IMG/VR virus record: IMGVR_UViG_3300035698_001799
Coordinates: 1 to 33,246 of that record
Source: a virus
Reading direction: 5' to 3' (one strand)
Length of the DNA: 33,246 nt
Below are positions 6,028 to 30,396 of this stretch, piece after piece (the first letter of the stretch is position 1; every line of letters begins with the position of its first letter). Both the position numbers and the translations under genes were made by a program. Under the pieces are notes generated by a model that was not told where the DNA came from, did no database searches, and saw only the letters and a program-made list of their open reading frames with translations.

Positions 6028-6041
6028 GTTCAAGATTCCTT

Positions 6042-6488: not shown

Positions 6489-6515
6489 TTAGGACCTTCA
6501 AAGAAGGCCCATAGT

Positions 6516-7436: not shown

Positions 7437-7437
7437 A

Positions 7438-8106: not shown

Positions 8107-8116
8107 TTCGTTTGCC

Positions 8117-9145: not shown

Positions 9146-9153
9146 ATGAAATT

Positions 9154-9175
9154 GGGCGGCACTTGCGCACCGCCC
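9154..9175 (-). promoter_or_regulatory. RNA hairpin with GCAA tetraloop between gp32 and primase
   Basis: On the minus strand the arms GGGCGGTGC and GTGCCGCCC pair over 9 bp, including two G-U pairs that form only in RNA of this strand, and they close a GCAA (GNRA) tetraloop. AAAGGAAA lies immediately 5' and AATTTCATATG immediately 3'. No U-run follows, so it is unlikely to be an intrinsic terminator. Folding would bring AGGA to an effective spacing of about 10 bases from the primase ATG. Confidence 0.75.
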
Positions 9176-9181
9176 TTTCCT

Positions 9182-10626: not shown

Positions 10627-10629
10627 CAA

Positions 10630-11022
10630 CTATCCTTTTAATAGATCACACAGATTGTTTTTTTCAATTTCAATATTATATCTCTTTGCCATTTTTTGTT
10701 TTAATAATAGTTTGGTTTTACTATCTAACATCGAAAGAACTTTATTAAACTTAACAAAAATATCTTCAAGATATATAATAGCCTCTACTAATTCTAGACC
10801 CGTTTCTTCTATAACTTCTATTAGAGCCACATTAAATTTGTTTTGCTGAATCCCGCTTATTCTTGAATTCGATCCGATATCATACAAAACTTCTATAGAA
10901 AATCCTCGTTTGTCTAGTTGCTTAAAGAATTCTGTCTTGCTCATTTCAGTTACTATATTATCTTCATCCGTTCGATTAATGATCTTCTCTGGGTCTATTA
11001 AATTAATTTTATGTTTTGACAT
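10630..11022 (-). CDS. 33: Late-promoter coactivator, probable T4 gp33-like
   Basis: The 130-residue protein is assigned mainly by synteny, directly upstream of the gp59-like gene as in T4. A faint match to T4 gp33 runs over VIEETGLELVEAIIYLED and the hydrophobic C-terminus LCDLLKG, which is comparable to the short clamp-binding LDFLL tail of gp33. In T4, gp33 links RNA polymerase and gp55 to the sliding clamp so that late transcription depends on replication. The presence of gp55 and TATAAATA promoters in the window makes such a factor expected. Its ATG overlaps the gp41 stop by 1 base. Confidence 0.62.
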   Translation of the reverse strand: MSKHKINLIDPEKIINRTDEDNIVTEMSKTEFFKQLDKRGFSIEVLYDIGSNSRISGIQQNKFNVALIEVIEETGLELVEAIIYLEDIFVKFNKVLSMLDSKTKLLLKQKMAKRYNIEIEKNNLCDLLKG

Positions 11023-12227
11023 TATTCCAATCCTATTAAACTTTTAAATTTATCTTCATCATCTTTGTTTAAAACCTTATTAACAATTCCAGCAGCAGCA
11101 TTAAGTTTGTGTTGTTTTTGTGCTTGTGTTTTGTTTTCCTCAACTTCAGCCATATTAACAACAGGCGCATCCAGATCCTCACTGATCCTCATCTTATTAT
11201 AATTGACGTTTATCAGTATCTTCTGCTTGTTTATACCATATCTATTTTTTAAGAATACCCAAGCGTACTTTCCTTGTTCTCTTAATTCTTCTGATTGTGT
11301 CACACCTACAATGATATCAGCGGTGGCGGCAGAACCAATAGAGTCGGCTACATTCTTCAAATCTATTTCAGCACTACCGATGGCGGCTCTATTACTTTGT
11401 ATGGCCGAGACAATGGGTACTCCAAATTCTACTGCTAGTGCCCTTACCTCTTCTGATATTCTTTTAAGCTCAACATAAGTGTTATCGCTCTTTCTAGATA
11501 TAGTTGACATCATTATACCAAGATAATCTATAAAAATAATGTCTGGTACAAATTTCCTTTTAGCTTCTAGTTCTTTTAATAAAACTCTAATATGATTAAC
11601 ACTAATAGATCTAGGAGCATATTCTTTCACATAAAATTGTTCTGGTATCTTCTTATCAAATACCTCAAACTTATCCATGAATTTATCTCTTGGAATTGTA
11701 TTAAGAACCCCAATGTCAACATCGAACATATTAGCCATCACTCTCTCAGCTATTTTCTCTTCTGCCATCTCACAAGTTACATACAACACATTCTTATTTT
11801 GTAACAAGCACTCTACACCGATCGAAGTCATAATCAAACTTTTACCAAGATTTGTGTTATGGCTACTAACACCATTTGTATAATATCTATGGTTGTTATT
11901 GTCCACGGCTATGTCTACAACATTAATTATTTGGTCTGTTAATTTAACATCAAACGATTTAAATTTTCCATCTTGACATAAAATTTTATGTTTTTTATTA
12001 TCTAATTTATTTGTACTTACCCAACCCGAATTTGTTTCAAATAAATGTTTGCTAGATGATAATATTTCTTTATCATCTATTTTCAATTTCCAACTTTGTT
12101 TCTTTCCCTTTTCTACATATTGTTTTACCGCCACCCAACCATCAGGAGAATTAACTTCTACTATATTATTTTTAAGTAATTGTTTTACTTCTTTTATTGG
12201 TACTTCTTTTTCAATCCAATCTGTCAT
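11022..12227 (-). CDS. 41: Replicative helicase gp41, C-terminal fragment with split-intein C-part
   Basis: The first 124 residues are the C-part of a split intein and the remaining 277 are the RecA-like motor of a DnaB-family helicase. The intein part ends NNNHRYYTNGVSSHN, and the extein begins with Thr in TNLGKSLIM, the second half of the Walker A motif. Walker B is DIIFIDYLGIM. The block-B His is in SSKHLF. Translation starts at ATG 12227 behind AAGGAG. Joined to the 196-residue N-extein from the preceding gene, the spliced product is about 473 residues, matching T4 gp41 (475). The fragment alone would lack a complete ATP-binding loop. Confidence 0.93.
   Translation of the reverse strand: MTDWIEKEVPIKEVKQLLKNNIVEVNSPDGWVAVKQYVEKGKKQSWKLKIDDKEILSSSKHLFETNSGWVSTNKLDNKKHKILCQDGKFKSFDVKLTDQIINVVDIAVDNNNHRYYTNGVSSHNTNLGKSLIMTSIGVECLLQNKNVLYVTCEMAEEKIAERVMANMFDVDIGVLNTIPRDKFMDKFEVFDKKIPEQFYVKEYAPRSISVNHIRVLLKELEAKRKFVPDIIFIDYLGIMMSTISRKSDNTYVELKRISEEVRALAVEFGVPIVSAIQSNRAAIGSAEIDLKNVADSIGSAATADIIVGVTQSEELREQGKYAWVFLKNRYGINKQKILINVNYNKMRISEDLDAPVVNMAEVEENKTQAQKQHKLNAAAGIVNKVLNKDDEDKFKSLIGLE
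11856..12227 (-). mobile_element. Split intein, C-part (124 residues)
   Basis: It runs from MTDWIEKEVP to SSHN, with Thr as the +1 residue. It contains nearly all Hint strands, including SSKHLF (block B His) and the HN C-terminus. No homing endonuclease domain or gene is present between the halves. Because the partner N-part is only 15 residues, this belongs with the atypically split inteins cut just after the first strands. Confidence 0.9.
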
Positions 12228-12251
12228 TTATAAACTCCTTACACTCGTTTA

Positions 12252-12887
12252 TTACAATTTTCGGTATCTTATTTTAACAGTTGTATTTTCATCTACACAC
12301 TCGGCCAAGAACAGACTCAATGATTTTTCATGGAATCCACCTTCAATAATATTATCGAACGGTTTGATACCGGTCGAAACAGTTTTATCTTTGTCGTGTA
12401 GAAAGTCATACAGTCTATCTTTATCGTTAAAGAAGTCAAGACCTATTTGTGTATTGAAACTAAACGACAAGGCGTCCCTTAATCTTTCAGGACAATTCCC
12501 TAACTTTGCCATATCATCACTGTTAACATATTCAGCGGCGTCGGTGATAGTATTAAAGATCAATTTCTTTTTAAAGAAGTCTTCAATCTTATCTATCAAC
12601 ACATCGTCGTTGTCAAACTCTTCTGCTAACGTAGTTGTAATTTCTACAAACCTGTTATAAATATCTGGTATCTCAATTTCTAATTTCATTTCCTGTAAAG
12701 TCGGAAACCGATCTTTTCTTTCTAAAAAACCAAGAACCTTTTTAATGATATGAGCATTTGTACCATCATTAAATACATCAACAGTAAGGAACGGTAAAAT
12801 TCTATCTCTTACCTCACCGTTTTTGAAAAGAAATTTGATTAATAATTTCTCAAAAAATATTGGATCTATTATTTGTTCTTCTGCCAT
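12252..12887 (-). CDS. 41: Replicative helicase gp41, N-terminal fragment with 15-residue split-intein N-part
   Basis: Residues 1-196 form the helical N-terminal domain and the start of the motor domain, ending LSLFLAE, the first residues of the Walker A motif (AE|TNLGKS). The last 15 residues, CVDENTTVKIRYRKL, are an intein N-part starting with the catalytic Cys1. The stop is followed after 24 bases by the C-fragment gene with its own ribosome binding site. The two genes are therefore separate cistrons, not a frameshifted single one. Trans-splicing is expected to restore the hexameric 5'-3' replicative helicase. Confidence 0.92.
   Translation of the reverse strand: MAEEQIIDPIFFEKLLIKFLFKNGEVRDRILPFLTVDVFNDGTNAHIIKKVLGFLERKDRFPTLQEMKLEIEIPDIYNRFVEITTTLAEEFDNDDVLIDKIEDFFKKKLIFNTITDAAEYVNSDDMAKLGNCPERLRDALSFSFNTQIGLDFFNDKDRLYDFLHDKDKTVSTGIKPFDNIIEGGFHEKSLSLFLAECVDENTTVKIRYRKL
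12255..12299 (-). mobile_element. Split intein, N-part (15 residues)
   Basis: The encoded CVDENTTVKIRYRKL has Cys1, the T-x-[VI] pattern of Hint block A and one further strand, and then stops. It is much shorter than the roughly 100 residues of usual split-intein N-parts such as the UvsW one in this window. Confidence 0.88.
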
Positions 12888-13946
12888 TTATATTTCCTCA
12901 AGGTCTGCTTCATTTTTACACATGTCCAATTGATTATGATACGAATAAGTCTTTTCTAAGTAGTCTTTGAAATCTGTTTCTTTAAACACAGGCAACCAAA
13001 ATTCAGAGTTGTAAATGTTCTTCTCTCTCCACTTCTTATCATCTTTCACATTAGGTCTAGTATAAAATCCCTGTGTAGGACAATCAAGGAACCCACCAGC
13101 TAAAGCATCATCCTTCAATCCAAAGAATGTATCAAGGCCGCCGTTATGTTTGATTCTGAATTTCAACTTAGCGGCTTCAACTGAATAACGAGACTTAAAA
13201 GTTATTGCTGTTATTATATGACCTGTTATTTCTTTCTTAGAATTTTTCTCTACGGCTCTTGAAGATCCCAAAATGATACTAGAAGAATTAAAAACTACCT
13301 TTCTTCCACCAGGGATTCTTAACGATTGCCCCATTGCCATTGGATCATCATAGACATGGTTAATGATAAAAAATGTACAGCCGGTCGCAAGACAACAATT
13401 AGCAAGGTTATTCTTTTTCTTTGGATCAGAGAAATCAACAACATCATTTCCTGTCAATCCATCGTTAATAGATTTGGATGTAATTAGAGCTCCCCAACTA
13501 TCTATAACAAAGAATACATTATGCTTTTCTTCTCTTGTCATTTCATCTGTGATCTTTAATATAATTCCCTTGATTTGTTCGATTCTATTTTCCTGAAGAA
13601 TAATTAGTTTCTTAGGATCTAAATCTACTCCAACTGCTGTAGCGTTTATTTTACTGAACGCACTTTCTGTATCAATAACCACAATCTGCATTCCTTTCTT
13701 TTGGGCATTTTTAATTAGTCCCATACCAACAAAAGATTTACCTAACATTGAAGGTGCTGACATCATTGACATTTTACCTATTGGGATGCCGCCCTGAACC
13801 TTGCCACTAAACAAAAGGTTTAGCGCTATTACATTTGTTGATAGAAATTCTGTTTCTTTTGTATCGTCTAACAAATAAGATGATAGGGCTGGGCTTCCTT
13901 TCGTTCCCTTATCTTTTGTTACAATATCGTAAATACTTTTAGCCAT
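12888..13946 (-). CDS. uvsX: Recombinase UvsX, RecA family
   Basis: The 352-residue strand-exchange protein has a Walker A variant APSMLGKS, a glutamate in VVIDTESAF, Walker B VFFVIDSWGAL, and the RecA-like IINHVYDDPMAMG and IPGG loops. Its length is close to T4 UvsX (391). The start at 13946 follows AAGGAGAAACAAAATG. A frame extending 22 residues upstream would run back into the polymerase gene and is rejected. It works with UvsY, gp32, UvsW and gp46/47 in recombination-dependent replication, all encoded in this window. Confidence 0.93.
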   Translation of the reverse strand: MAKSIYDIVTKDKGTKGSPALSSYLLDDTKETEFLSTNVIALNLLFSGKVQGGIPIGKMSMMSAPSMLGKSFVGMGLIKNAQKKGMQIVVIDTESAFSKINATAVGVDLDPKKLIILQENRIEQIKGIILKITDEMTREEKHNVFFVIDSWGALITSKSINDGLTGNDVVDFSDPKKKNNLANCCLATGCTFFIINHVYDDPMAMGQSLRIPGGRKVVFNSSSIILGSSRAVEKNSKKEITGHIITAITFKSRYSVEAAKLKFRIKHNGGLDTFFGLKDDALAGGFLDCPTQGFYTRPNVKDDKKWREKNIYNSEFWLPVFKETDFKDYLEKTYSYHNQLDMCKNEADLEEI

Positions 13947-13957
13947 TTTGTTTCTCC

Positions 13958-16900
13958 TTAAAATTGTATAAATTGCGACAAAGCATTCTCTTCTAATTTG
14001 ATATCGCCCCAATCAAGAACGTCAAAGAATCTCTGTATAATATTCTCAAAGCTTTTTTCCCATTGTAAATCAATATCTATTTTAAAATAATCATTAAATT
14101 CTTTTGGATAGTTACCAAGAAACCCGACCACATTAGTATTATATTCATTGATATCAGAAATATAAATGTACTTAACTTTAGAACCATTAGCCACAGGTTG
14201 TAATTTTAGTTTCTTAGTATCAATGATATAGTTATAAACAATACTGGCCTTTGCATGGATCGGTGTTTTAAGTTTATATGTTATTCCCCGCTCAACATAA
14301 TGACTGATTGGCTGGGCCCACTTGGTATATTCAGATATTCCTTTTGGTGTTGCGATATCTTCTATAGATGATTTATCAAATTCTTTTCTTATTTCTTTGA
14401 GCTGTTTGATAGTATGTTTTTTATCATGCAGCTCAAATATTCCTGATATCACTTCCTTCAATTTCTTTCTACAAAATGTAGGTGTACTAGTCCTTACAGT
14501 TTCTACACCCGTAACATCCATCTTTGGTATATCAAATACATCATCTTCGTCCTCAATAACCATATCAACATATTTCTTTTTGGCCAATATGATTTTCTTA
14601 TCAATAATCTTTTCTCGTTTAAAATTAATTATATTAGGCACTTCATATTTCTTAGCATAAATTCCTATAATCTTCTTCCAAAATTTATTAAAAAATCTTT
14701 TATCAAGGTCATTTGCCCACAGACGAAACTCTTTGGTTGTTTTAAATTCTAATCCAAGAGATTTTCTTAATTCATCCAAACAAATATAATTACTGTCCGT
14801 ATCAATAAGAACGACCATATCTTTCTCAAGAGGTTTAATCGATTTAATGTTCGGATATAATTTAGTTGCTAGTTGAACCCAATTTTCTTTAAGATATCTA
14901 TTAACTGTGTTTGAAAGATATTTGATCAAATCTTGACCACCAAGAGTGATCGCCCTAGCATTATCTAAATTGTAGAACGGAAAGTATCTATTTCCGAGGC
15001 AACCATAAACAGATTGGCCCGTCCACATAAATTTACCATTATTACCAACGTACACAGTATGGTTATCTTTTACTGTTAGATTATATACTTTTCCTTTATG
15101 AAATTCTTTAGTACAACTATGTTTTCTTACTTTAAAATGTATTTTATTCCAACAAATTCTATAACAACCGCTGTCTATATGATATCTAGGGGCATATCCC
15201 ATTTCTATAACCAGTTTTATAAAATCTTGAAACAATTGTTCGCATTTAGTACTTATATTATATCTTAATTGTTTTTTAGTACCATCTCCTTCATACATTG
15301 TTTTAAACAATTCTACTTTATTTAATATACCAAACATTACAGGGTGGATTTTTTTATCATATTTTACTCCAAAATATTTTTTAATTATTTCAAACATAAC
15401 ATCAGAACAAGAATTTATTCCTTTATTATTAACAGAAACTTTATTATAAAATATTTCGTTCATAACTTTTAAAATTTTATTATATATAAGAGGATGAACA
15501 TTTTTATATTGACTTATGTTTATTCTTTTTGTTAATCCTCTTTTAGTTGTTTTATATATTTTAGTATTACTTTCATACGCAGATCCTTCTGATAAATAAT
15601 ATCCTATAAATTTAGAAAAGGTTTTATTATTAACTCTAGCTTCTATAATATTACATCTTTGTTTGTTTCTTTTACTTCTTAAGAAAACTTTATATCCATT
15701 ATCATATATTTCTTTAATCATTTCTTTTGTTAGTTGTTCATTTATAAATGCCATTTGTTTCCTATTATGATTCTGTTTCAAATTAACAAAAGGCAATTTA
15801 TTTTTAACATATCTAAGATCGTTTTCATTATATTCTATTAAACCATCATAATTATATAAATCTATAAAATCGCTTAAGAATATAAACTCTGAAGAATTAT
15901 TTAATGAACGATTATGTACAGGGATTAAATTATAACATCTATTAACAAAATCTTTCGCTGGTTTAGTTTCTATTTTATCACTATTCTGTATTAACATTTT
16001 ATGTTCTGGGGTAACACAAACGTCAACTTTTGTATTTTTAATTCTATGCATTTCTCCATTATAATCATATTCATATGTTTTTTCTACCGGCTTTATTTCT
16101 AAATCGTTTGTTTCTTTATTAATAGAATAAACAAGCTCACCAACTTTAATATCTTTAATTTTTTTAATGCCAGTTGTTGTTAAGATATCCGTTTCTTCAT
16201 GAAAACAATTAATAATAATCTTTCTTACTTTCTGTTGTGAGTCATAATATTTAACTGATGTGTCTTTATATCTCAGCTCATCTTGAACCATTGTAACAAA
16301 CTCTAGATCTGTGTTATATGTTTTTGCGATCTCTTCTGGATCCGCACCTTTAGTTAATTCATTGGCTACACTTTTCTTTAATTTAAAAACAACTCTATCA
16401 TTAAATACTTCTTCAACTATTTGAGGTAGCACTCCCTTTTTAGTATTGTCATAAAAGAGGCCCGGTATAGGAGTCTCAAACACTTTACTCATATCCGTCG
16501 GTTCCTTTACCAATGTTTCAGGCGAGATATTGTACTGCATGATCATGAACGGATACAAAGAAGTCACATCATATGAAATTAGATGACGGTACCAACCCGG
16601 CTTTGCCATACAATAAGCGCCCGGATATGTGCCCTCTGTCCCTAATGTCAAATCAGGAAATACTATATTGTTTCTACGGAAATATCTCAGCATATAACCA
16701 GATATCAAACTGATTGAAGAGAATACCCTTTCAAAAGGAATTAACGCTTGGTAACAAATACTTAAAGCGAGCTCGATATGTTTCTTAACTTTCTCTATTT
16801 CAATTACCAATAGAACATCTTGCACATTATATTCAACGAAGCCATCCCAATCAACCCGCCAGGCGTCGTTAATCGTTCCTTCATAATCTAGCTTACCATG

Positions 16901-17704
16901 ACCGGTTTCTTCCATTCCTATTGCTTGTAGGCTGTATGATGGCATCTTTTTATAAACGAAATTCTTATACAGATCCTGACCATCCAAGATAGATATTCCT
17001 GCTATCTCATAACCGCCGCCCTGAATATGATATCCTGCTGTTTGTGATTTCTCTTTGTAGATATTAACAGGCGACAATGATTTTTCTATACCAAGTCTTT
17101 TACATCTATTAATGATATAAGGAAAATCGAACAAACGACTATACCATCCAGTAGCAATATCAACCTTCTTCTTTCTAAACAGATCTATAAATCTTTCAAT
17201 CAAATGAACTTCATCAGGACAATAATAATAATTTTTAACTATATCACTCTTGCCATTATAAGGACGCAAACCAAATGTATGCATACTATTATCTTGTGAA
17301 AAATGTACACTAATCAAATTGATAGGATATTTAGCTTGAGCGGGATGAGGAAATTCGTTTTCTGCTTCAACCTCAATATCAATTGTACAAACCTGAAAAT
17401 TATTAATGTCTGGTTTAATATCTTGGGCGCCGTATCTTTTGTGTAGGAATTTAACATCTTCAGCAAGGTTAGCTTCACAAGTTTTGATTCCTTGTTTGCT
17501 AGCTTGCCTCATATCTTTTCTTGTTTTAGCTCGTCTTTGTACTACAGGATTGCCCCAGATATCTTTTGTTTCAGATCCCTTGTTTGGGTCTGGTACATAA
17601 TATTCATTGGCTGCTTTGGTTTCAACTCTTTTATTTTTACCGTCAACAGTTTCCCAAAGAAATATTTTGCCTGTCTTATTATTGTAATATATTTTTCTAT
17701 ACAT
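13958..17704 (-). CDS. 43: Family B DNA polymerase gp43 with intein in motif B
   Basis: The 1248-residue precursor contains a 398-residue intein, so the mature enzyme is about 850 residues (T4 gp43 is 898). The 3'-5' exonuclease motifs are TIDIEVEAE, GWYSRLFDFPYI and YNVQDVLLV. Polymerase motif A is YDVTSLYPF. Motif B is KVRKIIIN|SVYGCLG, split by the intein. Motif C is LIDTDSNYI. All catalytic Asp residues are present. Its TAATG start overlaps the DHH gene stop, and uvsX follows 11 bases downstream. Without splicing, the conserved Lys and Tyr of motif B would be separated and polymerisation should fail. Confidence 0.95.
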   Translation of the reverse strand: MYRKIYYNNKTGKIFLWETVDGKNKRVETKAANEYYVPDPNKGSETKDIWGNPVVQRRAKTRKDMRQASKQGIKTCEANLAEDVKFLHKRYGAQDIKPDINNFQVCTIDIEVEAENEFPHPAQAKYPINLISVHFSQDNSMHTFGLRPYNGKSDIVKNYYYCPDEVHLIERFIDLFRKKKVDIATGWYSRLFDFPYIINRCKRLGIEKSLSPVNIYKEKSQTAGYHIQGGGYEIAGISILDGQDLYKNFVYKKMPSYSLQAIGMEETGHGKLDYEGTINDAWRVDWDGFVEYNVQDVLLVIEIEKVKKHIELALSICYQALIPFERVFSSISLISGYMLRYFRRNNIVFPDLTLGTEGTYPGAYCMAKPGWYRHLISYDVTSLYPFMIMQYNISPETLVKEPTDMSKVFETPIPGLFYDNTKKGVLPQIVEEVFNDRVVFKLKKSVANELTKGADPEEIAKTYNTDLEFVTMVQDELRYKDTSVKYYDSQQKVRKIIINCFHEETDILTTTGIKKIKDIKVGELVYSINKETNDLEIKPVEKTYEYDYNGEMHRIKNTKVDVCVTPEHKMLIQNSDKIETKPAKDFVNRCYNLIPVHNRSLNNSSEFIFLSDFIDLYNYDGLIEYNENDLRYVKNKLPFVNLKQNHNRKQMAFINEQLTKEMIKEIYDNGYKVFLRSKRNKQRCNIIEARVNNKTFSKFIGYYLSEGSAYESNTKIYKTTKRGLTKRINISQYKNVHPLIYNKILKVMNEIFYNKVSVNNKGINSCSDVMFEIIKKYFGVKYDKKIHPVMFGILNKVELFKTMYEGDGTKKQLRYNISTKCEQLFQDFIKLVIEMGYAPRYHIDSGCYRICWNKIHFKVRKHSCTKEFHKGKVYNLTVKDNHTVYVGNNGKFMWTGQSVYGCLGNRYFPFYNLDNARAITLGGQDLIKYLSNTVNRYLKENWVQLATKLYPNIKSIKPLEKDMVVLIDTDSNYICLDELRKSLGLEFKTTKEFRLWANDLDKRFFNKFWKKIIGIYAKKYEVPNIINFKREKIIDKKIILAKKKYVDMVIEDEDDVFDIPKMDVTGVETVRTSTPTFCRKKLKEVISGIFELHDKKHTIKQLKEIRKEFDKSSIEDIATPKGISEYTKWAQPISHYVERGITYKLKTPIHAKASIVYNYIIDTKKLKLQPVANGSKVKYIYISDINEYNTNVVGFLGNYPKEFNDYFKIDIDLQWEKSFENIIQRFFDVLDWGDIKLEENALSQFIQF
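15014..16207 (-). mobile_element. Intein with LAGLIDADG endonuclease in DNA polymerase
   Basis: It spans 398 residues from CFHEETDILT to FMWTGQ and is followed by Ser in SVYGCLG. Block B is VTPEHKM. The LAGLIDADG-type helices are FIGYYLSEG and LFKTMYEGDG, the first divergent. Block F is VYNLTVKDNHTVYV. The terminal residue is Gln preceded by Gly, instead of His-Asn; Gln-ending inteins are known to splice in some cases. Confidence 0.9.
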
Positions 17705-19886: not shown

Positions 19887-20581
19887 TCTTCATCCTCCTT
19901 CAATTTTCTTGTTATTTTCCAACCCTTATAATTATTATACTTAAAATTAAGATTGTGTTGTTTCCATTTATATTTGTTACAAAAATCTTGTAAATTTTTT
20001 ATATCATTAAAAACTTCTCCATTAGGACTAACAAAATAATAAACATATTTTGTTCTTAATTTACTACTCGCGCCTATTAATTTTAAAGATTCTTTTTTAT
20101 GTTTCTTTCCATAAAATGTATTTTCTTTACCTAGTCTAGTGCCTTTTCTATTTTTACTCCATTTTTCTTTTTGTTTCTCTGAATGATGTTTATTATAAAA
20201 TGTATTATTTTTTCCTGAGCCAATACCTTTTAATGATTTACTTATTTTATTTTTTATTTCTTGAGACCGGTGATTTCCAAAATTTGGATTCTTTTCACCG
20301 AACAAACGAGGGCCCAGGCCGCCTAATGAAATATTATAACCAATATTTGGATCGGTAGCACTTGTTTTAAGTATCCAATAAGTTTCTAATTTAGGAACTT
20401 CAGCAGATGTACAAAATTCCAACGTTTCTCTATCAAAATTATCCTTACCATATTTTTTAATTGCTAATTTAAGAATTGTTCCGGATCCTAAATAACCATC
20501 ATTGGCACTGGTCCAGTGTTGACCAACATAAATCTTTTCGTTAATTAAATTTGTAGTTTTGTAAATAATATATGTACTCAT
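19883..20581 (-). CDS. GIY-YIG homing endonuclease (Seg-like)
   Basis: The 232-residue free-standing endonuclease has the GIY-YIG domain at its N-terminus (YIIYKTTNLINEKIYVGQ), three NUMOD3-like DNA-binding repeats (GEKNPNFGNH, GKNNTFYNKH, GKENTFYGKKH) and a C-terminal helix-turn-helix-like module (NIKNLQDFC-type, FKYNNYKGWKI). Enzymes of this type spread their own gene into related genomes. The start at 20581 has GGAGGTATCTTATG. An ACCTC five-base complement lies 19 bases upstream and could pair with GAGGT. A late promoter is about 95 bases upstream. Its last codons encode KLKEDEE, the same as the end of the 83-residue ORF at 20995. Confidence 0.9.
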   Translation of the reverse strand: MSTYIIYKTTNLINEKIYVGQHWTSANDGYLGSGTILKLAIKKYGKDNFDRETLEFCTSAEVPKLETYWILKTSATDPNIGYNISLGGLGPRLFGEKNPNFGNHRSQEIKNKISKSLKGIGSGKNNTFYNKHHSEKQKEKWSKNRKGTRLGKENTFYGKKHKKESLKLIGASSKLRTKYVYYFVSPNGEVFNDIKNLQDFCNKYKWKQHNLNFKYNNYKGWKITRKLKEDEE

Positions 20582-20674
20582 AAGATACCTCCAGTAAGGT
20601 TTAAATGTTAGAGGTTGAAGTAATCTTTGTACTGGCAAAGAAACCGTGCCCGGCTGTCCTTCGTACCCTATAAG

Positions 20675-20682
20675 TATTTATA
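20675..20682 (-). promoter_or_regulatory. T4-type late promoter upstream of the GIY-YIG gene
   Basis: The minus strand reads TATAAATA between the 102-residue ORF and the endonuclease gene. It matches the -10 recognised by gp55-type late sigma factors, and a gp55-like gene is present at 23354. Late expression is typical of T4 homing endonucleases. Confidence 0.6.
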
Positions 20683-20689
20683 TATTCCA

Positions 20690-20998
20690 CTATTCATCTC
20701 CTTTCCACATACTAACACCGACAATATGTTCGTTATCATCAACATCAAATGCCATACGTTCTCCAATTAAAACATCTGTGATTGTTGCAATAATAGAAAA
20801 GGTGGTCATGCAATGACCCTTTGAGGCATCATCATAATCAATAGGTCTGATACCAATCCTATCGTCTTCTTGTTCTATTATAACTAAAGAATCTTTTTCC
20901 TTCTCTTTAATTGTATTATTAATATCAGACCATTTTATTGGCTCTGATGCTTTTATCATTTTGTTTAATACACCAATTAGTTCTTTTGCTTTGCTCAT
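20690..20998 (-). CDS. Unknown 102-residue protein
   Basis: I do not recognise this protein. It is compact, with a helical N-terminus (KELIGVLNKMIKAS), a segment PIKWSDINNTI faintly like the W-N-N-L motif of nearby small ORFs, and a beta-rich acidic C-terminal half (ITDVLIGERMAFDVDDNEHI). Its ATG overlaps the stop of the 83-residue ORF by 4 bases, with AAAGGAGGATGAAGA as a strong ribosome binding site, so it is a real member of the operon. Confidence 0.7.
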   Translation of the reverse strand: MSKAKELIGVLNKMIKASEPIKWSDINNTIKEKEKDSLVIIEQEDDRIGIRPIDYDDASKGHCMTTFSIIATITDVLIGERMAFDVDDNEHIVGVSMWKGDE

Positions 20999-23769: not shown

Positions 23770-25524
23770 TCAATTCTCTAAGACTGAAAAATTGTTTTGT
23801 TTTTGAATTGTAATAGATTTTTCAAATAATTCACTATAATCAGTTTGAAGTCTATGAGAGATAATATACACACAAAGGTTCGGAGAGTCTTCAGTCATGG
23901 CCCTGAGGCTTGTAACTAGTTTATCTAGACCTTCTTCATCTATAGCGCTGTCCAATATTTCATCTAACATTAAAAGATTACAGTTCCAATTAGAAATTAC
24001 TTTGGTTATATTAATAAAAGAAAGCAGGATCGACATATCTATTCTTTTCTTTTCACCCTCAGAATAAGAATAATAAGATACTGAATTGCTCATATTTTCT
24101 ACGTTAACAATCTTCTCGTTCATATATTCATCGAATTCTAACATTGAAGGGAGCTCAAATAATTGTAAGTATTCATTTATTTTAGCATTTAATATTGGAA
24201 TAAGTTTTTTAAAAAAGAAAGCTTTAATACCGTTCTCAGAAAGGATGTTGATTACCATTTCATTATTCTTGATATCAGTCTTTATTGTCTCACAGTTCTG
24301 ATGTTTTTCCTTATAATCAACACATTTATCATCAAATTCTGCTTCTAGTTCCTCAAGATTAAAATCTATTTGCTTCTGTTTAATCTCTTCTTTATTCTTT
24401 TCTAAATGAGATATTTCATCTTCAAGGTTCTCAAGCTTTTCGATAATAAAATTCTGTTTATGTTCAAGATCTACAGATTTTCTTTTGCTATCTGATTTTT
24501 CTTTGATCTTAATTTCAAGTTTCTTTTTATCACTTAATATATTCTTAAGGTTTTCATCTGCCACTTTTATCTCTTCTGTCAATCTTTTCAGCTCTGTATC
24601 TCTATGTTGTGGTGTTATTTCATTAACACACAGCGGACATATTGTATTCTCTTTAAGATGCTTAATTGTTTTCTTGAAATTCTTTGTTTCGTATTCCCAG
24701 CGGGCAGTTGATTTAACTAATGTCTCTCGATTCTCTTTAAGCGAGTCAAGGACGGCGAATGCGGGTAGATCACTAATATCTTGACGTATGGTATCCCTTT
24801 CCTTCTCAGATAGCTCCTTGGCCGTACATTTATCTTGTATTCTATTATCTAGATTTTGTATTTCTTTTTCTTTGTTATCATCGAAACTTTTACTAGCTTC
24901 TTTTAATTGCTCTACTCTTTTTTTCATTGACTTGATATTTTCTTTTAAAATATCTAGTGTTCGCTTAATAATCTCATATTGCATATACAGATCTACATTT
25001 TCTTTCTTAACAGCTCCTAACATCTCACCAAATATTTTAATATTAAATATCTGTTCTATGATTGCTCTCTTGTCATTAGCTTTTAAAGATAGGAATGGTC
25101 TGTTGTAATTAATTGCTAGTGAGATAACGTTCTTAAACATAGCATGGTTGATGCCGACTATCTTATCAATTTCTTCTTGGTTCAATTTTTTAGAAGACAT
25201 TAGATCTGCCTTCTTACCATTCTTGATAATTTTAATAGCATTGGGGCGCATCGTTCTAATAATTGTATATTTATCTCGATTGTCAACTAGAAAATCGCAT
25301 TTGACATACAATTTCTTTTTGTTCTTACGATTAATGATTTCTTCTATTCTTATTTTACGATAGGGTTTTCCAAACAAACAAAATGATATGGCGTCGAGGA
25401 TGGTTGACTTACCACTTCCATTTTTACCTGCTATTAAATTCAGGCCTGTTGTAAAGTCTATCTTTTCTATTTTTGATCCGAACGATAAGATATTACTAAA
25501 TTCTATTGATTCAAATTTGACTAT
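23770..25524 (-). CDS. 46: Recombination nuclease subunit gp46 (Rad50/SbcC-like ATPase)
   Basis: The 584-residue SMC-like ATPase has Walker A AGKNGSGKST near residue 35, long coiled coils on either side of a zinc-hook CPLC (about residue 300), an ABC signature YSEGEKKRIDM, Walker B LLMLDEILDSAID and a downstream ISHR His switch. It partners gp47. The start at 25524 follows AGGAAGGAATATG; a frame reaching 21 residues further upstream would extend into the promoter and is not used. It is the first leftward gene after the divergent promoter region. Confidence 0.94.
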   Translation of the reverse strand: MVKFESIEFSNILSFGSKIEKIDFTTGLNLIAGKNGSGKSTILDAISFCLFGKPYRKIRIEEIINRKNKKKLYVKCDFLVDNRDKYTIIRTMRPNAIKIIKNGKKADLMSSKKLNQEEIDKIVGINHAMFKNVISLAINYNRPFLSLKANDKRAIIEQIFNIKIFGEMLGAVKKENVDLYMQYEIIKRTLDILKENIKSMKKRVEQLKEASKSFDDNKEKEIQNLDNRIQDKCTAKELSEKERDTIRQDISDLPAFAVLDSLKENRETLVKSTARWEYETKNFKKTIKHLKENTICPLCVNEITPQHRDTELKRLTEEIKVADENLKNILSDKKKLEIKIKEKSDSKRKSVDLEHKQNFIIEKLENLEDEISHLEKNKEEIKQKQIDFNLEELEAEFDDKCVDYKEKHQNCETIKTDIKNNEMVINILSENGIKAFFFKKLIPILNAKINEYLQLFELPSMLEFDEYMNEKIVNVENMSNSVSYYSYSEGEKKRIDMSILLSFINITKVISNWNCNLLMLDEILDSAIDEEGLDKLVTSLRAMTEDSPNLCVYIISHRLQTDYSELFEKSITIQKQNNFSVLEN

Positions 25525-25565
25525 CATATTCCTTCCTGAAAATATTAGCTTGACATCTGTTAATA

Positions 25566-25594
25566 AATATACTATATTAATTTCCACTTGTCAA
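25566..25594 (-). promoter_or_regulatory. Sigma-70-like leftward promoter for the gp46 operon
   Basis: On the minus strand TTGACA (25594-25589), 17 bases, and TATATT (25571-25566) stand about 40 bases upstream of the gp46 start. It lacks the TGC extension seen in the other leftward promoters. It faces away from the rightward promoter at 25658. Confidence 0.85.
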
Positions 25595-25657
25595 GTAAAT
25601 AATTGCTTATTTTTGCAAAAATAAGATCTTATAATAAAATCTTTTTTAAAATAAACC

Positions 25658-25686
25658 TTGACAAACCGAAATAATTTTACTATATA
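25658..25686 (+). promoter_or_regulatory. Sigma-70-like rightward promoter for uvsY
   Basis: TTGACA (25658-25663), a 17-base spacer and TATATA (25681-25686) form a good promoter. Transcription would begin near 25693, only a few bases before the CTTAAG array, so the whole array would be in the 5' leader of the uvsY transcript. Confidence 0.8.
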
Positions 25687-25699
25687 TAATAGGGAGTAT

Positions 25700-25849
25700 C
25701 TTAAGAGACCTTAAGAACATCTTAAAAAAACCTTAAGAAATACTTAAGGGCCCTAGGACCTTAAGAAATACTTAAGGGCCCTTAAGAAAACCTTAAAGGG
25801 CCCTAGGACCTTAAGAACATCTTAAGATATATAGGACCTGGACCTTAAG
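25700..25849. repeat. Array of helically phased CTTAAG palindromes between promoter and uvsY
   Basis: Ten perfect CTTAAG hexamers start at 25700, 25710, 25732, 25743, 25760, 25771, 25781, 25810, 25821 and 25844, and two CTTAAA variants start at 25721 and 25792. Most spacings are 10 or 11 bases, with breaks of 17, 18 and 23. An 18-base unit GGGCCCTAGGACCTTAAG occurs twice (25748 and 25798), and CTTAAGGGCCCTTAAG (25771-25786) is a perfect 16-base palindrome. The array is non-coding and occupies much of the 450-base gap between gp46 and uvsY. T4 has a replication origin at uvsY, so an origin role is plausible but inferred. Operator, leader-RNA or packaging roles are alternatives. Confidence 0.85.
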
Positions 25850-25909
25850 GACCAAGATAATGGCCCCAGGAAATTTTCTAAATAAAATCTTACGGACGAA
25901 GAAAATGCT

Positions 25910-25938
25910 CAACATCGTCTGCTTCGCATCCAATGTTG
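25910..25938 (+). other. Possible stem-loop in the uvsY leader
   Basis: The arms CAACAT and ATGTTG are perfect complements enclosing a shorter TGC-TTC-GCA hairpin. It lies between the CTTAAG array and the uvsY ribosome binding site and is followed by a GC-rich GCGCAGCGCG stretch unusual for this AT-rich genome. The function is unknown. Together with the two promoters and the array, this accounts for what I can see in the 450-base gene-free stretch. Confidence 0.4.
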
Positions 25939-25974
25939 CGCAGCGCGTTGTTTGAAAAAGGAGAACGAATTATT

Positions 25975-26385
25975 ATGAACCTTGTTGATCTTAAGAACCT
26001 TAAATTGAAAGCTAAAGACCATTTTAAAATAACCCCAGAAAATATTTTGGATAAATCGATCCAATTAGGAACGCTTTTCCAAAGATACTCGCAGATTCAT
26101 AATACAGAACTTCTGAAATTGAAAACATTATCAGTAGAAAAGGATAAATTGTATGGAGATCTGTATCATAAAAAGAAGTTTGAGGGTAGTTTCACTTTAG
26201 ATTCTAATAAAGAAATCGATATTTATGTTAAGGCAGATGATACATATTACAAATTACTGGTAAAAATAGCAAACCAAGAAGTAATTGTAGACTGGTTAGA
26301 ACAAACTATCAACAATATAAACAAATTAGGTTTCTACATTAAGAATTATGTTGACATATACAAATTTAAGAATGGTGATGTTTAA
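25975..26385 (+). CDS. uvsY: Recombination mediator UvsY
   Basis: The 136-residue protein loads UvsX onto gp32-coated DNA. It matches T4 UvsY (137 residues) in length and in the overall helical pattern: YSQIHNTELLKLKTL, the polar KKKFEGSFTLDSNKEI segment and a C-terminal DWLEQTINNINKLGFYIKNY. The start at ATG 25975 has AAAGGAGAAC about 10 bases upstream; a frame 14 residues longer lies in leader sequence. The neighbouring uvsW gene downstream is also as in T4. Confidence 0.85.
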   Translation: MNLVDLKNLKLKAKDHFKITPENILDKSIQLGTLFQRYSQIHNTELLKLKTLSVEKDKLYGDLYHKKKFEGSFTLDSNKEIDIYVKADDTYYKLLVKIANQEVIVDWLEQTINNINKLGFYIKNYVDIYKFKNGDV

Positions 26386-26442: not shown

Positions 26443-27435
26443 ATGAATCTGATTACTGTTGATAAATTGAATGAAGTATATTTTAAGATTAACTGCAACT
26501 ATTCACAAGCTCTAGAGCTCCGTGATTTCTTTTCTGAGTTTGTTCCTGGATTTCAATACAGCCCAAAATTTCGTAATAAAATATGGAACGGTAAGATTTC
26601 GTCGTTTAATATGACAACATCACAACTTCCGATCGGTCTGTATAGAGAATTGTGTAAATTTATAAAGAAATATCATTATGACATTAAATTCAATTTTAAA
26701 GTTGAAGATGTCAGAAACAATATATCAGATCAAGAAATGGACGAGTTTTACGAGGCTATATTTAAAAACTCATCGTTCTACCCTAGAGATTATCAAGACA
26801 TGTCTGTTCACCGGGCACTGAACCGCAAACGAGGAATTATAGAGTCCCCTACTGCATCAGGTAAATCTTTAGTAATATATTGTATCATTAGATTTCTTTT
26901 AGCCCAAGATAAAAAAATAATGCTGGTAGTTCCTAATATCGGACTGACAACACAAATGTTCAACGATTTTAAAGAATATGGTTGGACAGCTTGTGAAGAT
27001 TATACTAGTATTTTATATGGTAAAAGTAAAAAATATGATCCAAATAAACCAGTTCTAATTACAACCTGGCAGAGTATTTACAAGAAAAAAACAACTTACC
27101 TGAAATCATTCGACGCGGTATTGGTAGATGAATGTATATCCGGAGATTCATTAATAAAAATGGCAAATAATACATATAAGAAAATAACAGATATTAAAAA
27201 AGGAGATAAAATTTTAAGTTATAATATAGAAAATAATAAAATAGAAGATGACGAAGTTTTAAAATTACATGAAAATTTATTTATTTCTTCTTCGGAAGAG
27301 ATGTATGAAATTGAATTAGAAAATGGAAAAAACTTACAGTTAACAGGAAATCATAAAGTATTAACTAAAAACAGAGGGTATGTTAAAGTTAAACATTTAA
27401 AAGAAAAAGATGATATAGTAGATTTAAAACTATAA
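26443..27435 (+). CDS. uvsW: UvsW helicase, N-terminal fragment with split-intein N-part
   Basis: Residues 1-230 are the N-terminal DNA-binding domain and first motor domain of UvsW, an SF2 helicase for branch migration and R-loop or D-loop unwinding. The Q-motif region is FYPRDYQDMSV, Walker A is ESPTASGKS, motif Ia is VVPNIGLTTQM, and Walker B breaks after AVLVDE. The last 100 residues are an intein N-part starting CISGDSLIKM, with a block-B region LTGNHKVLT. The frame stops inside the intein, so the product requires trans-splicing with the fragment at 28401. Confidence 0.93.
   Translation: MNLITVDKLNEVYFKINCNYSQALELRDFFSEFVPGFQYSPKFRNKIWNGKISSFNMTTSQLPIGLYRELCKFIKKYHYDIKFNFKVEDVRNNISDQEMDEFYEAIFKNSSFYPRDYQDMSVHRALNRKRGIIESPTASGKSLVIYCIIRFLLAQDKKIMLVVPNIGLTTQMFNDFKEYGWTACEDYTSILYGKSKKYDPNKPVLITTWQSIYKKKTTYLKSFDAVLVDECISGDSLIKMANNTYKKITDIKKGDKILSYNIENNKIEDDEVLKLHENLFISSSEEMYEIELENGKNLQLTGNHKVLTKNRGYVKVKHLKEKDDIVDLKL
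27133..27432 (+). mobile_element. Split intein N-part in UvsW (100 residues)
   Basis: It runs from Cys1 in CISGDSLIKM to DDIVDLKL before the stop. Blocks A, N2-like and B (GNHKVLT, with the His) are present. It interrupts the helicase DE|CH box. Its partner, 35 residues ending ICVSN, is encoded at 28401-28505 beyond the intervening endonuclease gene. Confidence 0.9.
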
Positions 27436-27478
27436 ATACATATAGCTAAAACTAAATGTTTACAAGGAGAGCTATATG
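27431..27478 (+). promoter_or_regulatory. Late promoter overlapping a start-codon-sequestering hairpin
   Basis: TATAAATA is at 27431-27438. CATATAGCT (27439-27447) is perfectly complementary to AGCTATATG (27470-27478), whose last three bases are the endonuclease start codon; AAGGAG sits at the edge of the loop. Read-through transcripts can form the 9-bp stem and hide the ATG. A transcript starting from the late promoter should begin within the left arm and lose most of it. Confidence 0.7.
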
Positions 27479-28432
27479 CATATAAATGAAAAAAGAAGAT
27501 TGAATGCTTTTAATGAATATAATGTTCTGTTAAAAAATAATGAACAAAATCTTTTTATTAAGAACTGGAAAAATAATGCTTTGTTACTTTCAAATAGTAT
27601 TTTTTTAGGAAATAGAAATGATGTTAGAAATTTTTTAAATAGATGTAAATCTAAAATTACAGGAAAATTAATTGATTATTTATATGAAGATTTGGATAAT
27701 ATTAAGAGTAAATTAAAAAAAATAAGGAAAGAAATAAATTCTTATGGTGGCAAACGGTGCTGGGAATTAAATAAAAAGACTCTATTGAAAAATTTTTCTG
27801 GAGAACCTTGGAATAAAGGATTGACAAAGGAAATAGATGATAGAATTCCCTCGGCTTGGAATAAAGGATTGACAAAGGAAATAGATGATAGATTGATGAA
27901 AATGTCTAATGATAGAATTGGTGTTGGAAATCCTATGTATGGTTATAAACATTCAGAAGAATATAAAAAAAAGAAGTCTAAATTAATGAAAGAAAAAATA
28001 TTAAATGGAACTTTTACTCCAAATATTCATAATTCTAGAACTCATTGGCAAGCTGAATATAATGGTAAAAAATATAGATCTTCATGGGAGGCTGTTTATC
28101 ATCATTTAAATCCAGAATGTGAATATGAAAAAATTAGAATAGAATATTATTTAAATGATAAAAGAAAAATTTATATAACAGATTTTGTAAATGAAAATAA
28201 TAAAATTGTATATGAAATAAAACCAGAATCTAAAATAAAAGATCAAATAACAAAATTAAAAGAAACCGCAGCATTGAATTGGTGTAAAAATAATGGTTAT
28301 AGATACGAATATATTACTCAAAAGTATTTTTATAAAAATTTTAATAAAATTGATTTTAATTGTTTTGATATAAATGTTAAACAGAAAATGGAAAAATTAT
28401 ATGAAATTGAAAAGTGTAAAGAAAATAACTAA
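27476..28432 (+). CDS. Free-standing homing endonuclease between split-intein halves, PD-(D/E)XK type
   Basis: The 318-residue protein has a helical N-terminus, two WNKGLTKEIDDR repeats and a GVGNPMYGYKHSEE segment like the NUMOD3 DNA-binding motif. It ends in a nuclease-like domain: YRSSWEAVYHHL, ITDFVNE, VYEIKPE, then a WCKNNGYRYEYIT helix-strand. That order (Glu, Asp, Glu-x-Lys) is a PD-(D/E)XK core and resembles the gp4-like protein at 6042. Its location between the two halves of a split intein fits the fractured-gene arrangement known from phage metagenomes, in which the endonuclease gene drives homing of the split intein. It overlaps the UvsW middle fragment by 32 bases. Confidence 0.85.
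   Translation: MHINEKRRLNAFNEYNVLLKNNEQNLFIKNWKNNALLLSNSIFLGNRNDVRNFLNRCKSKITGKLIDYLYEDLDNIKSKLKKIRKEINSYGGKRCWELNKKTLLKNFSGEPWNKGLTKEIDDRIPSAWNKGLTKEIDDRLMKMSNDRIGVGNPMYGYKHSEEYKKKKSKLMKEKILNGTFTPNIHNSRTHWQAEYNGKKYRSSWEAVYHHLNPECEYEKIRIEYYLNDKRKIYITDFVNENNKIVYEIKPESKIKDQITKLKETAALNWCKNNGYRYEYITQKYFYKNFNKIDFNCFDINVKQKMEKLYEIEKCKENN
27807..27892 (+). repeat. Perfect 38-base direct repeat inside the endonuclease gene
   Basis: A 38-base unit at 27807-27844 is repeated exactly at 27855-27892 with a 48-base period, so the reading frame is kept. Each copy encodes WNKGLTKEIDDR. The lack of any third-position change indicates a recent duplication or ongoing conversion. Confidence 0.85.
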
Positions 28433-28505
28433 ACCAGAAAAAGTTTATAATTTACATGTTAAAAATAATAATAATTATTTTGCAAATGATATTTGTGTAT
28501 CTAAT
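28401..28505 (+). mobile_element. Split intein C-part in UvsW (35 residues)
   Basis: The block F-like VYNLHVKNNNNYFANDI is followed by CVSN and then the Cys of the extein CHGAK. The terminal Asn and +1 Cys are present; the usual penultimate His is Ser. Together with the 100-residue N-part it makes a complete, endonuclease-free Hint domain. Confidence 0.9.
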
Positions 28506-29156
28506 TGTCATGGAGCAAAAGCGATGCAATTACAAGGCGCACTCAAAAAGATGACCAATGCTGAATATAGAGTTGGTCTAACAGGTACATTACAAGAGGA
28601 TAGATATAATCTTCTTAACATTAATGGATATCTGGGCCCAACTATTATGGCCTTGAAGTCATCTGAGCTGATAGATAGAGGTATATTATCAAAAATTAAA
28701 ATAGCTAATTTGATATTAAAATATCCTGAAGATATTGTTGAGATGCATAAAAATCGCCCATATGAAGAAGAGGTGCGAACGATTATAGAATATCAACAGC
28801 GTCAAAAGGTATTTAACATCATAGTAGATCATACAAAACCGGATGATAATATTTTAATGTTGTTTTCAAGGATCCAACATTTAAAAGATACCAAAGAATA
28901 TCTTGAGAAACAATATCCAGATAGAAAAATTCATGAGATATACGGTGATATTGATCCTGACAAAAGGGAATCAATTAGAACGTCATTAGATAGAACTGAA
29001 AGAAAAATTTATTTAACAACCAATTCGTTTATAATTGTTGATAGTAATGAAGAAATCATTTTAAAAAATGGACAAAAAAAGAAGGGATCAATGATTACAA
29101 TAGAAGATGATATTGATGATGATTGGATAAAAACAAAAAAAATTCATGTAAATTAA
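28401..29156 (+). CDS. uvsW: UvsW helicase, middle fragment with split-intein C-part
   Basis: The first 35 residues (MKLKSVKKIT to ICVSN) are the intein C-part. The extein resumes with Cys in CHGAKAMQLQ, completing the DECH box. Motif III is VGLTGTL, and motif IV lies in NILMLFSRIQHL. The recognisable helicase sequence ends at KIYLTT (29021), just before motif V. About 44 further residues (starting NSFIIVDSNEEI) do not belong to UvsW and end at a stop. ATG 28401 is chosen because it is preceded by ATGGAAAAA and gives a normal-length C-part. An ATG 9 codons upstream (28374) is possible. Confidence 0.88.
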   Translation: MKLKSVKKITKPEKVYNLHVKNNNNYFANDICVSNCHGAKAMQLQGALKKMTNAEYRVGLTGTLQEDRYNLLNINGYLGPTIMALKSSELIDRGILSKIKIANLILKYPEDIVEMHKNRPYEEEVRTIIEYQQRQKVFNIIVDHTKPDDNILMLFSRIQHLKDTKEYLEKQYPDRKIHEIYGDIDPDKRESIRTSLDRTERKIYLTTNSFIIVDSNEEIILKNGQKKKGSMITIEDDIDDDWIKTKKIHVN

Positions 29157-29160
29157 TGTT

Positions 29161-29188
29161 TATTGGTATAAATATAATTAAACCAATA
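29161..29188 (+). promoter_or_regulatory. Late promoter inside an inverted repeat upstream of the HNH endonuclease
   Basis: TATAAATA (29167-29174) lies between the arms TATTGGT (29161-29167) and ACCAATA (29182-29188). AAGGAG and the ATG follow immediately. As at 27431, a late transcript would start after the left arm and so lack the hairpin that read-through RNA can form. Confidence 0.6.
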
Positions 29189-29203
29189 GATACAAGGAGT
29201 TAC

Positions 29204-30070
29204 ATGATTTTTCAAAAATTTATTCAGTTATTAGGAGAGCCTAGTGATATAAATTTATTAATGAAATATATAAAATTTTGTAGATCGAGTTATCAAATCG
29301 AAGGTAATATAATTGAAAAACATCATATTGTACCAAGAAGTATTTGTAAAGAGTGGATTAAAGAAGAATTTAATATTATATCAATGTCATATGAAAATCA
29401 TATTAAATCTCATAAAATGCTTGTTGAACTTTATCCAATACGGAAATTTTATAGACCATTGAACTATATGTTAAATTTCAATAAACCAGAAGAATATTCA
29501 AAAATGAAAAGTAAAGAAGTTTCTGAATGGTGGAAAACATTTAAAAAAACCGACAAATATATATTATGGATAGAAAAAAGACGCAAGAGTACTAATAATT
29601 TTGAAAATTTTATTAAAGGTGGGATTAAAAGTACGATTAAAAGGAATAAAAGTAAAACATATCGTAAGAAAATTTCTAAAGCTTGTCGAGATTTTTGGGA
29701 TGAAGATAAAAAATTTTTACATTCAAAAAAAATGAAAAGTAAAATGACAGTAGAAAGGAGAAAGAAAATGTCTGAAATTTTATTAAATCGTTGGGCGGAT
29801 GATAATTTTAAAAATAAAATGAAAATAAAAATGAAAGAAATAAATCAAGAAGAAGGAAAGAGAAATGTAAGTTCTGAGAAAAATAAAAAATATTGGAAAG
29901 ATCCAGATTATAGAAAAAAGATGAAAATAGCTAGACAAAATGGTAAACAAAGAGATATAAAAAGTCAATCAAATAAAATGAAAGAAAACTGGAAGGATCC
30001 GGAGTTTAGAAAAATGATGTTAGAAAGGAGAAAGAAATCTAATGAAACCAAAGAAAATAGAGGAAATTAA
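29204..30070 (+). CDS. HNH homing endonuclease inserted in uvsW
   Basis: The 288-residue protein carries an HNH nuclease motif, EKHHIVPRSICKEW followed by SYENHIKSHKML, near residues 45-80. The rest is a highly basic region with repeated units of the type W-x-D-x-x-[FY]-[RK]-x-K-M (YWKDPDYRKKMK, NWKDPEFRKMM, RWADDNFKNKMK), probably DNA-binding modules. The start at ATG 29204 has AAGGAG at ideal spacing; a longer frame beginning at 29123 overlaps the UvsW fragment and lacks such a site. It separates the UvsW middle and C-terminal fragments. Confidence 0.85.
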   Translation: MIFQKFIQLLGEPSDINLLMKYIKFCRSSYQIEGNIIEKHHIVPRSICKEWIKEEFNIISMSYENHIKSHKMLVELYPIRKFYRPLNYMLNFNKPEEYSKMKSKEVSEWWKTFKKTDKYILWIEKRRKSTNNFENFIKGGIKSTIKRNKSKTYRKKISKACRDFWDEDKKFLHSKKMKSKMTVERRKKMSEILLNRWADDNFKNKMKIKMKEINQEEGKRNVSSEKNKKYWKDPDYRKKMKIARQNGKQRDIKSQSNKMKENWKDPEFRKMMLERRKKSNETKENRGN

Positions 30071-30099
30071 AAGTCCCGGCCATATTTTGGTCGGGACTT
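30071..30099 (+). other. Strong 11-bp hairpin between HNH gene and UvsW C-fragment
   Basis: AAGTCCCGGCC pairs with GGTCGGGACTT (one G-U pair) across a 7-base loop. It begins directly after the endonuclease stop and lies 15 bases before the next ATG. It is not followed by a U-run, so termination is doubtful. It may be part of an intron 3' end or an RNA-processing element. Confidence 0.6.
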
Positions 30100-30114
30100 A
30101 TTAGCTGAGCAACT

Positions 30115-30396
30115 ATGAGCACAGGTATAAATATAAAAAGGTTGCATCATGTAGTGTTTGGTAGTTCTTATAAGTCTAAGATTAAAGTCTTGCAGAGTAT
30201 TGGAAGAGGCCTTAGAACACATGAGACAAAGAAACAACTGATACTATGGGATCTTGTTGATGATATGACATGGGTTAATCGTCTTAAGAATATTAGTAAG
30301 AATCATGTTTATAAACACTTTGAAGAAAGATTAAGATTTTATAAACAACAAGGCTTTGAATTTATATCTAAAAAGATTTCTTTGGGAGATTTATGA
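30115..30396 (+). CDS. uvsW: UvsW helicase, C-terminal fragment
   Basis: The 93 residues contain helicase motif V (STGINIKRLHHVVFG) and motif VI (VLQSIGRGLR) and end like UvsW (KHFEERLRFYKQQGFEF). They complete the second motor domain. Together the extein parts add up to about 495 residues, near T4 UvsW. The ATG has a poor ribosome binding site (GCTGAG), and a stop lies two codons upstream in frame, so no intein C-part is attached. How this piece is joined to the middle fragment is unresolved: RNA splicing, non-covalent assembly, or loss of function. Confidence 0.85.
   Translation: MSTGINIKRLHHVVFGSSYKSKIKVLQSIGRGLRTHETKKQLILWDLVDDMTWVNRLKNISKNHVYKHFEERLRFYKQQGFEFISKKISLGDL

Follow-up and report, generated by a model that had tools for sequence, protein, structure and literature searches.

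In phage T4, the origins oriE, oriF and oriG lie near strand switches and have no local sequence motif in common; oriF requires a promoter together with an unwinding element, and its R-loops are removed by UvsW (PMC3016281). The T4 annotation places oriF at uvsY, whose transcript primes it. At oriE, 12-nt direct repeats are arranged in tandem at the strand switch, and similar repeats occur in the syntenic regions of relatives (PMC3016281). Regarding small hairpins, the closest descriptions are those of the N4 virion RNA polymerase promoters, whose C(GNA)G loops are needed for hairpin extrusion (PMC4496689), and of d(GCGAAGC), an extra-stable DNA mini-hairpin (PMC10527192), which is a physical motif and not a biological family.

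The virus record analysed here (33,246 bases, referred to as the window) comes from a T4-like phage, of which it covers the replication and recombination part. Its genes include gp46, gp47, a gp55-like late sigma factor, UvsY, UvsW and an SSB-like protein, and intein and homing-endonuclease-like insertions are present among them. No nucleotide similarity of the window to known phages was found, and a single-sequence search yielded no close relatives of its UvsY. Around 450 non-coding bases separate the leftward gp46 (SbcC-like recombination nuclease subunit; 23770-25524, minus strand; PHROG 77, E 7e-104, and Pfam AAA_23) from the rightward uvsY (recombination mediator; 25975-26385, plus strand; Pfam UvsY PF11056, E 1.5e-9, and PHROG 231) and uvsW, a helicase gene whose 5' part (26443-27435, plus strand; Pfam UvsW_N and Hint) runs into an intein. 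The gap consists, in this order, of an AT-rich stretch with divergent promoter-like sites, a palindrome array, a 3' part and the uvsY ribosome-binding site AAGGAG (about 25958-25963, plus strand). Towards gp46, a consensus scan gave the sigma-70-type promoter-like site TTGACA-17-TATATT (25566-25594, minus strand), and most relatives have a site of the same kind in the same place. Towards uvsY, a promoter-like site was read by eye at 25658-25690 (plus strand), composed of TTGACA at 25658-25663, 17 bases, and TATATA at 25681-25686, the latter overlapped by TATAAT at 25685-25690; this site is absent from the list of a stricter promoter scan.

The array, supported by motif count, Tandem Repeats Finder and folding, occupies 25700-25849, and holds ten CTTAAG and two CTTAAA words with GGGCCC and CCTAGG palindromes between them. 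The exact CTTAAG copies are at 25700, 25710, 25732, 25743, 25760, 25771, 25781, 25810, 25821 and 25844, and the CTTAAA variants at 25721 and 25792. Given that shuffles of the whole window contain a mean of 10.5 CTTAAG per 33,246 bases, i.e., about 0.05 per 150 bases, ten copies in 150 bases are far more than chance would give. Tandem Repeats Finder reports a 50-bp unit in 2.4 copies (score 164) at 25707-25826. The 16-base perfect palindrome CTTAAGGGCCCTTAAG is found at 25771-25786, and the 18-base unit CCTTAAGAAATACTTAAG occurs exactly at 25731 and 25759, with identity continuing through GGGCCCT. The highest palindrome coverage of the whole window also falls on this stretch. The initial annotation, made from the sequence alone, had described these words, the two exact units and the palindrome, an array start a few bases past a rightward promoter (the TTGACA-17-TATATA site ends just before it), and a location where transcription diverges directly upstream of uvsY; all of these were recovered.

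The same annotation held that the sites are mostly 10-11 bases apart and thus lie on one face of the helix. The spacings are indeed of this kind (10, 11, 11, 11, 17, 11, 10, 11, 18, 11 and 23), but the single helix face was rejected at 10.5 bp per turn, with a phase concentration R of 0.36 for the ten sites and 0.41 for all twelve (Rayleigh p of 0.28 and 0.14, respectively). Only a period of 10.0 bp fits the array (R 0.70-0.74). The 10-11 spacing is the one expected of 6-bp palindromes pairing across loops of 4-5 bases. A restriction-site decoy, considered since the array words are palindromes, received no support.

In comparison with T4 oriF, the locus agrees in its position upstream of uvsY and near a strand switch, in a promoter reading into uvsY (here by consensus only), and in a phage-encoded UvsW. 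It differs in that oriF relies on an AT-rich unwinding element and lacks a palindrome array, the T4 uvsY leader has 77 bases, T4 uvsW is on the opposite strand, and oriF is a known origin whereas the element described here is a candidate. Unlike that unwinding element, the array is GC-richer than its surroundings: GC content rises from 14-26% at 25500-25699, a stretch that includes the promoter and the bases before it, to 28-42% in the array. The AT-rich stretch precedes the window promoter, and no AT-rich unwinding element was found downstream of it. Like oriE, the locus has repeats in tandem where the coding strand switches, and relatives carry comparable repeats in syntenic regions, but here they are palindromes and hairpins instead of direct repeats, spelled in other letters in each phage, and the locus is a different one. 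Direct repeats of one initiator-binding word common to close relatives, as in an iteron origin, were not found: the words differ, and several relatives have hairpins but no direct repeats. Cow-rumen-2 RNA (RF02947) is likewise a structured element adjoining a divergent gp46, in two large contigs of more distantly related phages, but it is conserved in both sequence and structure and was not found in the window. Its matches are at L187 3972-4078 and L188 4059-4165 (minus strand), in contigs of 424 kb and 230 kb, and a literature search for this RNA together with phages found nothing.

Relatives, mostly uncultured T4-like viruses, were collected as contigs found by searches with UvsW, gp46 and UvsY. 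Each contig with the junction between gp46 and uvsY carries a palindrome or hairpin array there, in words that differ from those of the window (L067/L244, L070, L177, L178, L179, L181, L182, L183, L085, L069, L068, L095 and L246; L180 duplicates L070, and L189 and L184 end within the leader, so that uvsY on the far side is not seen). The array of L070 has five copies of ACCTAGGCCTAGAATAACCCTAAAGG, and the words are TTTAAAACCCTGGGTTACTCTAG in L067, AAAGCTTTTAAAAGCTTT and CTAGGTACCTAG in L179, TGACCGGTCATGACCGGTCA in L177, CCTAGGTTA in L181, and GATATCC-GTA-GGATATC plus GGATCC in L182. Tandem units are 24-26 bp long in L067 and L070, while L183, L085, L069 and L068 have hairpins without short tandem units. 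The words differ between phages whose UvsY proteins are 42-77% identical: L070 has 77% UvsY identity with L181 and 70% with L179, and these arrays have only CTAG-type words in common. Between L067 and L244, which are 98.2% identical over 2766 aligned bases, the 48 gap positions are exactly two 24-bp units (3 versus 5 copies), which indicates fast turnover of the array at a constant place and with its folding retained. A check for phased CTTAAG arrays in other phages, as suggested initially, gave 58 scattered pattern matches, none with more than 3 CTTAAG per 150 bases. The conserved properties are place, self-complementarity and type of hairpin loop, and neither the letters nor the helical phase is conserved. 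A mobile palindromic element is disfavoured, as none of the repeat units tested recurs elsewhere in the contig that carries it.

The arrangement has variants. An inserted ORF lies between array and uvsY in L067/L244, where it is a free-standing HNH-type ORF, and in L242. In L249, whose UvsY belongs to the same group, uvsY directly follows another gene and there is no array; in L096/L186, a 591-residue ORF lies between gp46 and uvsY, and structure is only weak. In L068 (1-260), a hairpin of the uvsY leader and its AT-rich neighbour are directly duplicated over about 160 bp. Upstream of uvsW, a survey of 92 further T4-like loci found no such hairpin clusters; in many of these loci, uvsY sits among tail or head genes. 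Bacterial and archaeal genome contigs searched with the UvsY alignment gave no matches, a further viral scan with an L085-type UvsY alignment gave no new phages, and no paper on such arrays at uvsY was found in the open-access literature.

The hairpins of the leaders favour one loop type. The count covered perfect hairpins with a three-base loop, stems no shorter than 4 bp and three or more G/C per arm. Of 25 such hairpins in the leaders, 20 have a C(GNA)G or C(TNC)G triloop, compared with 11 of 345 elsewhere in these contigs and 1 of 37 in other intergenic DNA; Fisher values for these figures are only descriptive, because it was in these leaders that the loop type first drew attention, prior to counting, and because the leaders have a common ancestry. 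Two counts came afterwards: in the first 50 kb of Ochrobactrum phage OC, 5 of 6 such hairpins are within the uvsY leader, and in the 92 other T4-like loci the loop type accounts for 14 of 239 (stems of at least 5 bp). The core heptamers have a density of 3.6 per kb in the leaders and 0.30 per kb over all contigs. Stems of 5-7 bp with a C(GNA)G triloop are present in the leaders of L070, L178, L179, L182, L183, L095, L246 and OC, and the special loop is lacking in L067, L177, L189 and L242. The window has C(GNA)G core heptamers only, with stems of 3 bp or less, two of which lie in the 3' part of its leader: GCGAAGC at 25921-25927 (minus strand, the uvsY template strand; stem of 3 bp in context) and GCGCAGC at 25938-25944 (plus strand). 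The former is exactly the mini-hairpin heptamer, which is also present in the leaders of L070, L085, L069, L183 and OC. As in N4, the hairpins are small and their three-base loop reads C(GNA)G on one strand and C(TNC)G on its complement (PMC4496689); here, however, they form clusters in T4-like phages and are accompanied by longer palindromes, and the likeness is of hairpins, not of polymerase or promoter. The same part of the window holds a possible 16-residue leader ORF at 25905-25955 (MLNIVCFASNVAQRVV), which lies in the GC-richest part of the leader and ends just 5' of the uvsY ribosome site.

Folding strength points to the same stretch. As RNA, 25690-25980 folds at -84 kcal/mol, compared to -57.9 in shuffles (z = -5.6), and as DNA the window leader presents z values of -6.2 on the plus strand and -5.7 on the minus strand. 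The strongest folding for composition in the whole window is on the array. Stronger folding than in dinucleotide shuffles was obtained for all 18 leaders compared (z from -1.7 to -8.3). By folding residual, the leader ranks first in 10 of 15 contigs (window, G001, G002, G004, G009, G011, G017, L179, L181 and, in a tie, L095), including first among 5278 windows in the 264-kb G009, where palindrome coverage is also highest. It ranks second in G003, third in the OC piece, about fifth in L067 and eighth of 5071 windows in the 254-kb G010, and is not outstanding in G012; a separate scan with shuffles put the L067 leader first. In that scan, some other strong folds are inverted repeats in coding sequence. 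Strong long-range inverted repeats in apparent coding regions are found at 8701-8860 of the window and in L087 and L086 (G001 12901-13080 and 1081-1240), and belong, after the uvsY leader, to the strongest folds. Rfam 15 gave no match above gathering score on the searched stretch, only sub-threshold, mostly miRNA-type matches on the self-complementary array.

Transcription diverges mainly at the junction in the larger contigs examined: in the 254-kb contig, 46 leftward genes lie on one side and about 60 rightward genes on the other, and the others are similar. In OC, the uvsY leader is not at a divergence point. The element is kept beside the uvsY promoter by a group of T4-like phages, mostly at the main divergence point. 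A look at GC skew around 25.7 kb had been proposed initially, and cumulative nucleotide skew minima do fall at the junction. In a first look at third positions, the skew seemed to follow the arm; at 4-fold sites, with stricter ORF filtering, it follows gene orientation. Since gene orientation accounts for the minima, they give no independent support for an origin, and skew was dropped as evidence.

Given these results, we consider, tentatively and with a probability of roughly 40%, that the array may represent one form of a hairpin element that is conserved in structure but free in sequence, and that is probably the counterpart of T4 oriF. Of the initial proposal of an origin or regulatory element, the location is retained, as it is kept in relatives and oriF is annotated at uvsY, but CTTAAG and its phasing are not the key. 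We infer the origin role from synteny with oriF and from structure, since skew adds nothing and an unwinding element is not seen downstream. In such an origin, the duplex would be opened by an R-loop of the uvsY transcript or by negative supercoiling from diverging transcription, whereupon the palindromes and the C(GNA)G/C(TNC)G mini-hairpins would fold, keeping the region open and offering single-strand structure that resists SSB. The uvsY transcript would prime the leading strand, and helicase and primase would load on the folded displaced strand. A bolder version, rather unlikely in our view, is an origin class defined by hairpin shape and loop type, with a fixed position beside uvsY, in which SSB-resistant C(GNA)G DNA mini-hairpins on the opened strand would load the replisome while the letters turn over. 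To our knowledge, few origins have been mapped in T4-like phages other than T4 itself. If the reading is true, a place- and structure-conserved, sequence-free element at uvsY would be a testable rule for origin finding across many viruses, and would show that origin conservation is possible without sequence conservation. Even with a role in transcription or mRNA, this would be an unusual case of hairpin loop types kept while sequence turns over. Ochrobactrum phage vB_OspM_OC (OC; MT028491), whose uvsY leader spans 20398-20839, is an isolate, which makes the element testable.

The main rival, which we regard as rather unlikely, is a structured 5' leader of the uvsY-uvsW mRNA, whose hairpins would protect the transcript or delay translation until late infection. 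In most phages the array has the placement of an mRNA leader, beginning just past a promoter and ending 5' of the uvsY ribosome site; in the window it starts within about 10 bases of the promoter and runs to the ribosome site, and the arrays of L070 and L067 start just after the late-type NATAAATA. In 14 of 19 leaders, NATAAATA lies on the uvsY-sense strand; a gp55-like late sigma factor is encoded in the window, and RNA folding is strong. Yet the sense strand has no folding advantage (sense and antisense are equal across leaders, Wilcoxon p = 0.55), and the DNA-type triloops occur on either strand, with the GNA form being sense 8 times and its TNC complement 12 times. Many palindromes have no spacer, and the hairpins persist where they are cut off from the uvsY mRNA: in OC, a terminator-like hairpin lies downstream of the hairpins, as does a TTGACA-17-TAGAAT promoter adjoining uvsY, and in L242 an opposite-strand ORF parts the array from uvsY. 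These observations favour a DNA-level role, and DNA rather than RNA is presumably the working form.

Improbable in our assessment are supercoil-sensing DNA hairpins, or an insulator, between divergent early gp46 and late uvsY units, with no role in replication. Nearly all leaders have divergent promoter-like sites, and the loops are of the type of N4, whose promoters use extruded hairpins; but in the window, L070 and L067 the array is downstream of the uvsY promoter and not between promoters, and OC is without divergence. Even less credit is given to a mutational by-product, in which template switching or slippage would pile up functionless palindromes and tandem units. The very fast turnover of the 24-bp unit and the lack of a sequence common to the arrays agree with it, but the arrays occupy one place in all relatives with the junction, with little alike elsewhere in 250-kb genomes, and a specific loop class recurs in unrelated hairpins. 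Finally, a dimeric protein reading CTTAAG and binding co-operatively on one helix face is very improbable because relatives with 42-77% identical UvsY carry the same kind of array in other letters, despite the many copies of one palindrome in the window, the tandem units of L067 and L070, and the iterons of unknown role at T4 oriE (PMC3016281): each array has several different palindromes, the phasing fails at 10.5 bp, and L085, L069, L183 and OC have hairpins without iterons.

Downstream of the leader, the uvsW region of the window (26443-30396) is in pieces. The intein starts at the end of 26443-27435, a NUMOD3/TnsA-like endonuclease ORF (27476-28432) and an HNH/homing endonuclease ORF (29123-30070) follow, and helicase C-terminal pieces are at 28374-29156 and 30115-30396. 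Judging from translations only, more intein-like insertions are present at 2296-17704, in the ribonucleotide reductase, replicative helicase and DNA polymerase ORFs.
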